From Candidatus Aerophobetes bacterium Ae_b3b (GTDB taxonomy: Bacteria > Aerophobota > Aerophobia > Aerophobales > AE-B3A), in the NCBI GenBank assembly GCA_005223085.1, contig NJBP01000052.1:1-13406 (forward strand): 13,406 nucleotides of DNA, read 5' to 3'. Each line of letters begins with the position of its first letter. The stretch's first letter is position 1. A program made the position numbers and the translations under genes. The notes beneath the pieces were generated by a model. It worked only from the letters and a program-made list of their open reading frames with translations, had not been told where the DNA came from and searched no databases. Below, in pieces: positions 6,657 to 12,211 of this stretch.

Positions 6657-6674
6657 AAACTCAGTCTTGGTAGG

Positions 6675-6757
6675 TACTCAGTGAACCCCGCCATTGCGAA
6701 GCGAAGCAATCTCGGTAGTCGCAGGTAGCCGCAGGCTTCAGCCTGCGCAAAATCTTA
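6675..6757 (+). repeat. Composite REP-like repeat, copy 1
   Basis: This 83-base segment recurs almost unchanged at 12130-12211. It has two modules: a CATTGCGAAGCGAAGCAATCTC element, and a perfect hairpin CGCAGGC-TTCA-GCCTGCG at 6730-6747 (7-bp stem, 4-nt loop). A lone GCCTGCG follows at 6758-6764. Here the element lies in the predicted 5' leader of dnaN. No coding potential or transposase accompanies it, so it behaves like a short dispersed non-autonomous repeat. Confidence 0.85.
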
Positions 6758-6770
6758 GCCTGCGTTGATA

Positions 6771-6788
6771 CGCACCCTAAAGGGTGCG
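6771..6788 (+). repeat. Hairpin element beside repeat copy 1
   Basis: CGCACCC (6771-6777) and GGGTGCG (6782-6788) form a perfect 7-bp stem with loop TAAA. The 4-base loop and 7-bp GC-rich stem mirror the hairpin 24 bases upstream, so the two probably belong to one family of palindromic units. It lies 37 bases before the proposed dnaN start codon. The copy of the composite repeat at 12130 lacks this unit. Confidence 0.65.
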
Positions 6789-6824
6789 GCTAGCCAAAAA
6801 GCAAGATCAGCAAAGGAGAAAAGA

Positions 6825-6953
6825 GTGAAGTTCACCTGTAAGAAAAACGATTTTTTAGAGGGGATGCGGGTGGTAGTACGCCTTAACCAGTGCAACACTT
6901 CCTATACTTACCCACGTTTTGATGGTAGCTAAGGAAGGCAGGATAAGTCTGTG
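6825..6953 (+). pseudogene. dnaN: 5' end of dnaN, split over two reading frames
   Basis: GTG at 6825 follows AAGGAG (6813-6818) by 6 bases and encodes MKFTCKKNDFLEGMRVVVR, a standard beta-clamp N-terminus. In that frame a stop follows at 6930. Entering another frame at GCC 6880 gives ALTSATLPILTHVLMVAKEG and then RISL, which matches the conserved TLPIL segment of the clamp, ending at 6951 just before a stop at 6952. Skipping TG at 6952-6953 restores the first frame at ACC 6954 (TATNL). The joined product would be about 370 residues, the normal family length. The two shifts look like loss of two bases at CGCC (6879-6882) and gain of TG, so they cancel. Sequencing error, real mutation or recoding are all possible. 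Confidence 0.85.
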
Positions 6954-7937
6954 ACCGCTACCAATCTCGCAACTACTATTCAGTCTTCTTTTGAAGGCCA
7001 GGTTCGAGAAAAAGGTGAGATTTGCCTACCGGGTGATAAGATTTTTAGCATCATAAGAGAGCTCCCTCCCGGGGAGGTAAATCTAGATGTTGCTCATACC
7101 AAAGCAACTATAAGCTGCGAGAAGGCAATTTTCCATCTTCTTGGTCTTTCTTCGGACGAGTTTCCCGAGATTCCCAGTCTGGAAGCAAAACAGACTTTCT
7201 CTGTCTCCTCAGAAAACTTGAGAGAGATGATTCAGCGAACGGTTTTTGCTGCCTCCCGGGACGAAACACGTCAAAATTTAAACGGGGTGTATCTTGAGGC
7301 GGGAGAGAAAGAGTTAAAGATGGTAGCCACTGATGGAAGACGCCTGGCCTTTATTCGCGCGCCTTTTGGGGTTTCAGAACAAATCCGGGCTGAGATTATA
7401 ATCCCCATACCGGCACTACAACAGCTAGTCCGAATCCTGGATCAGGAAAAAGAAGTAAAGATAGGAATAAGCCAAAAACAGATCTTCTTTCAGATGGAAC
7501 CTGTACTTCTTATTTCTCAATTGGTCGAAGCGAAGTTTCCTAACTATAGGGACGTGATTCCTGCCGAATACAACATAGCAATCTTTACCGACAGAGACCA
7601 GCTATATGGTGCCGTGAGACGGGTTTCTCTCCTGGCTGACGAGAAGTCACGCCTGGTCAAATTTAAATTACAAGGAGACATTTTGTGGGTAAGTGCTAAT
7701 GCTCCGGAAATGGGTCAGGCACGGGAGGAGCTTACGGTAAGGACGGAAGAGAAGGGTGAGATCGAAATAGGCTTTAATTCTGCCTATCTCCTGGATGCCT
7801 TAAAAAATCTGGGAGAAGGAGAGATCTGTCTCGAATTAACAGATTCTGTAAACCCAGGACTGATTCGACCCAGTGGGAATAAAGACTATATCAATGTGGT
7901 GATGCCGGTAAGACTTGAGACAGAGGAGCCTGAATAG
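6951..7937 (+). CDS. dnaN: DNA polymerase III subunit beta (sliding clamp), uninterrupted part
   Basis: The beta clamp encircles DNA and tethers the replicative polymerase and repair factors. The uninterrupted frame covers 328 residues and lacks the first 40 or so of the family; these are encoded just upstream in shifted frames. Family marks are TATNL, the CLPGDKIFSIIRELP segment, MVATDGRRLAFI in the second domain, FPNYRDVIP, and the closing YINVVMPVRL, which forms part of the protein-binding pocket. GTG 6951 is an unlikely true start because it lies inside the conserved first domain and has no close ribosome site. The gene is followed by recF, the usual order. The stop codon lies in the first unit of a 7-bp tandem repeat. 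Confidence 0.93.
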   Translation: MTATNLATTIQSSFEGQVREKGEICLPGDKIFSIIRELPPGEVNLDVAHTKATISCEKAIFHLLGLSSDEFPEIPSLEAKQTFSVSSENLREMIQRTVFAASRDETRQNLNGVYLEAGEKELKMVATDGRRLAFIRAPFGVSEQIRAEIIIPIPALQQLVRILDQEKEVKIGISQKQIFFQMEPVLLISQLVEAKFPNYRDVIPAEYNIAIFTDRDQLYGAVRRVSLLADEKSRLVKFKLQGDILWVSANAPEMGQAREELTVRTEEKGEIEIGFNSAYLLDALKNLGEGEICLELTDSVNPGLIRPSGNKDYINVVMPVRLETEEPE

Positions 7938-12103: not shown

Positions 12104-12129
12104 GGTAGCTAACGGCCTTAAAAGGTAAA

Positions 12130-12211
12130 TACTCAGTGAACCCCGTCATCGCCAGCGAAGCAATCTCGGTAGTCGCCGGTAGCCGCAGGCTTCAGCCTGC
12201 GCAAAATCTTA
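12130..12211 (+). repeat. Composite REP-like repeat, copy 2
   Basis: An 82-base segment nearly identical to 6675-6757, from TACTCAGTGAACCCCG to CAAAATCTTA, including the perfect hairpin CGCAGGC-TTCA-GCCTGCG at 12184-12201. Differences are concentrated in the CATTGC/CATCGC part. It lies between the LysM/M23 gene and the HPr gene, and the sequence on both sides differs from copy 1, so the repeat unit has clear ends. Confidence 0.85.

Follow-up and report, generated by a model that had tools for sequence, protein, structure and literature searches.

The window analysed here is an entire contig (C47) of 13,406 bases, from an 86-contig, 2.04 Mb assembly of an uncultured, Aerophobetes-type bacterium. 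The forward strand carries dnaN, encoding the beta sliding clamp of DNA polymerase III, at positions 6825-7937, in the gene order dnaN-recF-dciA. All three clamp domains were matched in Pfam (PF00712, which is domain I, PF02767 and PF02768), and an intact orthologue is present in the metagenome-assembled genome Candidatus Aerophobetes CSMAG_2676 (JAUWXE010000066.1), referred to below as the sibling, which was the only congener in the comparison set. The sibling dnaN is 88% identical at the DNA level and shares the GTG start, the ribosome binding site and the order of the three genes; it encodes a protein of 369 aa in one frame throughout, unlike the window's gene, which carries indels near its start and has a dispersed repeat directly upstream. 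No other dnaN, nor any other copy of its 5' segment, was found elsewhere in this 88.6% complete assembly, and no same-strain dnaN copy was found in viral contigs. One genome of the same order (G011) has a second, more distant dnaN-like gene beside its normal one, at positions 4688-5629 of contig C182.

The single uninterrupted frame of around 370 codons expected of DnaN is interrupted in the window by two breaks of two bases each and by a stop codon. A Shine-Dalgarno-like AAAGGAG motif lies within 6811-6824, 5' of the GTG at 6825, and is kept in the sibling; the frame that follows opens with VKFTCKKNDFLEGMRVVV, bearing out the view of the first-pass annotation that this is a normal clamp start. 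At the first break (6873-6880), alignment with the sibling and 14 relatives from the order indicates that two bases are missing, together with an adjacent substitution. From 6880 to 6951 it is the +1 frame that encodes a conserved clamp segment, ALTSATLPILTHVLMVAKEGRISL. At the second break (6950-6953), two extra bases form a tandem TG, converting CTG to CTGTG and generating a GTG codon at 6951, after which the first frame returns at 6954, reading TATNL. These frame changes had been described in the same terms in the first-pass annotation, and the alignment with the sibling contains exactly two gaps inside dnaN, of -2 near 6876 and +2 (TG) at 6952. The first break had also been specified as CGCC in place of CGCGCC; two bases are indeed missing, but this CGC/GCC placement is only one of several within 6873-6880, a range that cannot be narrowed because the missing bases fall in the VQN codons, which are conserved in most relatives.

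The readable residues of the three segments (18 + 24 + 327) join to give 369 aa, against 369 in the sibling, in keeping with the length of about 370 originally proposed. The accompanying statement that the breaks cancel holds only formally, in that they sum to zero: a TAA codon at 6930-6932, in the original frame, lies between them, so in no protein made from the gene would they cancel out. Because of this stop codon, an unshifted ribosome starting from 6825 would terminate after 35 codons, and a full-length clamp would need two opposite frameshifts. Because of the same TAA, the idea that the breaks are a compensatory (suppressor) pair of frameshifts, enclosing a stretch that is changed yet open, was rejected. 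A hairpin-driven template switch between the break sites was also considered, but the match involved, TGGTAG/CTACCA, is at 6 bases too short to be meaningful. As anticipated, gene callers would be expected to report a 328-codon open reading frame beginning at its first start codon (6951-7937), in which domain I is short of about 42 residues at its N-terminal end; the Pfam match to this domain in the downstream reading frame begins only at profile position 45 of 120.

The displaced segment has a mean local alignment score of 73.9 against 15 relatives, whilst 1,000 shuffles of it have a mean of 20.2 and a maximum of 37.5, and its two other frames score 14.5 and 17.2 against the same relatives. 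Clamp similarity at the N terminus is present in the shifted frame, far above the shuffled background. Comparison with the closest genomes, which had been recommended at the outset, found domain I open in a single frame, free of stop codons, in all 15 of the other genomes of the phylum having a dnaN hit, the sibling included. Between window and sibling, the displaced segment shows 0.111 substitutions per base, the majority at third positions of its own frame, a rate that equals the 0.114 found for the rest of the gene. Hence this segment was normal coding sequence until very recently. Across dnaN, three of 61 invariant sites are changed in the window, and the relatives, with a single exception, have between zero and three; there being no clear excess of changes at such sites, gene-wide relaxed selection was rejected. 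One glutamate that is invariant in the order relatives (in the motif TNLE) is replaced by alanine (GCA) at 6969-6971, 18 bases past the second break.

The quality of the surrounding assembly was assessed using those sibling genes whose alignment spanned 80% or more of the gene, a survey covering approximately half of each genome. Amongst the 114 sibling-aligned genes (112 kb), only dnaN is interrupted internally in this genome; the remaining flagged cases were differences in upstream start or the boundary between an rdgB-like and a coaE-like gene, these names being readings of the translations. The latter pair, HAM1/RdgB-like and coaE-like, forms one fused frame in the sibling (L124, 1165-2334) and a pair of neighbouring genes in the genome of the window (L042, 10360-11524). 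The frame-break count is thus not raised across the assembly, nor would a local fault require it to be. The probability of two independent indels falling within 78 bases in that much sequence is about 0.001, hence a single local cause is likely. In the sibling itself, breaks were found at L116 13951-13976, in a gene that reads as pnp (2 bases), and at L112 3867-3888, in one that reads as lpd, encoding lipoamide dehydrogenase (a single base, within a run of C). Breaks in housekeeping genes therefore occur in assemblies of this genus, and those of the sibling may themselves be errors.

Lying 28 bases 5' of dnaN, at 6667-6796, is a copy of a dispersed, hairpin-forming repeat, 130 bases long and hairpin-rich. 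No such copy lies directly upstream of dnaN in the sibling, similarity to which begins only past the repeat, at 6799. A 216-base query holding this repeat gave 57 matches in its own genome, two others of which have 95% identity over 126-129 bases. Within the window, copies of the approximately 130-base repeat are found at 6667-6796 and 12124-12211, with arms such as GCAGGCTTCAGCCTGC and GCACCCTAAAGGGTGC; this genome has many copies, whilst the compared half of the sibling has few. The family is possibly MITE-like or REP-like. The two breaks are situated 77 and 155 bases beyond the end of the repeat, inside the length of a short read.

The first-pass annotation had offered three readings of the breaks: a wrong assembly, ribosomal frameshifting, or a re-initiated short clamp. 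The first is the best supported, and the breaks probably reflect a local fault of assembly or consensus calling, the gene itself being intact. The locus would then be an ordinary beta-clamp gene, the first 43 codons of which are misrepresented in the assembly: in the organism, dnaN would be read without interruption between the GTG at 6825 and the stop codon at 7937, like the gene of every relative, and the cell's own DNA would be free of the two indels. A local fault near the high-copy repeat would have dropped two bases at around 6876 and doubled a TG at around 6951; from this proximity we infer that the repeat helped to cause it. As expected of an artefact, the breaks are private to one assembly whilst the homologues are intact. 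An error is also favoured by the TAA between the breaks, by the lack of any other dnaN in the assembly, by the normal coding pattern of the displaced segment, by the essentiality of dnaN in E. coli, where a frameshift at the matching position abolishes clamp function (PMC4045847), and by the frequency with which assembly gives rise to spurious pseudogenes (PMC11017572). Frame transitions that occur as singletons and have BLASTp validation are expected by the authors of GeneTack to stem from sequencing error, not from true indels (PMC3711429). Counting against an error, however, the assembly is otherwise clean, and the additional TG resembles a natural tandem duplication. Indels introduced by sequencing usually fall in homopolymers, and both of these lie outside them. 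The replacement of the invariant glutamate near the second break also counts against an error, and could hint at real relaxed selection. If an error is indeed responsible, the value of the finding is solely that of a correction: gene callers would give a 328-residue clamp, wrongly started at 6951, and the record would be unfit as evidence for a short clamp.

These same observations lend something to the strongest alternative, that the indels are genuine and private to a strain, or to part of the population, leaving a broken dnaN allele, and that a working clamp comes either from a second copy missing from the assembly or from intact cells living alongside. The cleanness of the assembly elsewhere, the natural character of the tandem TG duplication and the nearby change to glutamate are all consistent with this, as are the breaks in pnp and lpd of the sibling, though these are possibly errors too, and a second dnaN could be missing from a genome at this level of completeness. 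Nevertheless, a mutation that is lethal through loss of an essential gene would not be expected to predominate in a population, and the rest of dnaN lacks a clear excess of changes at invariant sites. We therefore regard genuine mutation as an unlikely, though not negligible, explanation.

Much less credible is that the indels are real and that a 328-residue clamp is started at the new GTG, aided by the upstream AGGCAGGA. The inserted TG itself generates this codon, no start codon precedes it in the long downstream reading frame, and an AGGA lies seven bases upstream of it; however, these Shine-Dalgarno-like letters are codons common to the sibling, which has no GTG at this position, and the product would be missing around 42 residues of domain I. 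In addition, an E. coli dnaN frameshifted at Leu49-Glu50 does not support viability (PMC4045847), and a short clamp is judged very improbable. In the remaining reading, a full clamp is made because programmed ribosomal frameshifting occurs twice, by +1 near 6879 and then by -1 (or +2) at CTG TGA (6949). The three segments do add up to a normal-length clamp, and the TGA that ends the shifted frame overlaps the resumed one, but this reading is highly improbable: direct inspection of the sequence shows neither a slippery heptamer nor a +1 site like that of prfB at the two breaks, the RNA folds no more stably than shuffled sequence (z of -0.16, against 0.73 in the sibling), the frame break is conserved in no relative, and two opposite shifts, both efficient, would be required in an essential gene. 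It is likewise very doubtful that the indels are real and fixed, with the cell relying either on a clamp made from the GTG at 6951 without approximately its first 42 residues, possibly complemented by a separate N-terminal peptide, or on one made by double frameshifting. Even together, functional recoding and a short clamp remain improbable. Were either real, it would be a striking exception, an intact clamp being essential where this has been tested, in E. coli.

The programmed frameshift genes of bacteria, such as prfB (+1) and dnaX (-1), have defined slip sites that are conserved across species. As with these genes, a full-length product from the window's dnaN would depend on a change of frame; unlike them, it has neither a defined slip site nor conservation between species. 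None of the titles and abstracts listed in a literature search showed a naturally frameshifted dnaN. The nearest engineered parallel is the -1 frameshift allele used in plasmid shuffling in E. coli, where dnaN is essential: the frameshift, at L49-E50, lies at the matching position in the protein and results in a non-functional clamp, but it is a deliberate, single change, and the strain depends for its survival on a plasmid-borne dnaN (PMC4045847). Spurious pseudogenes derived from assembly are common in public bacterial genomes (PMC11017572). The window's gene departs from these in having two breaks that together restore the frame, within an assembly showing no general excess of breaks, and that study left out metagenome-assembled genomes; like them, however, it combines an internal stop with a frame break in a well-conserved gene, and does so privately in one assembly.
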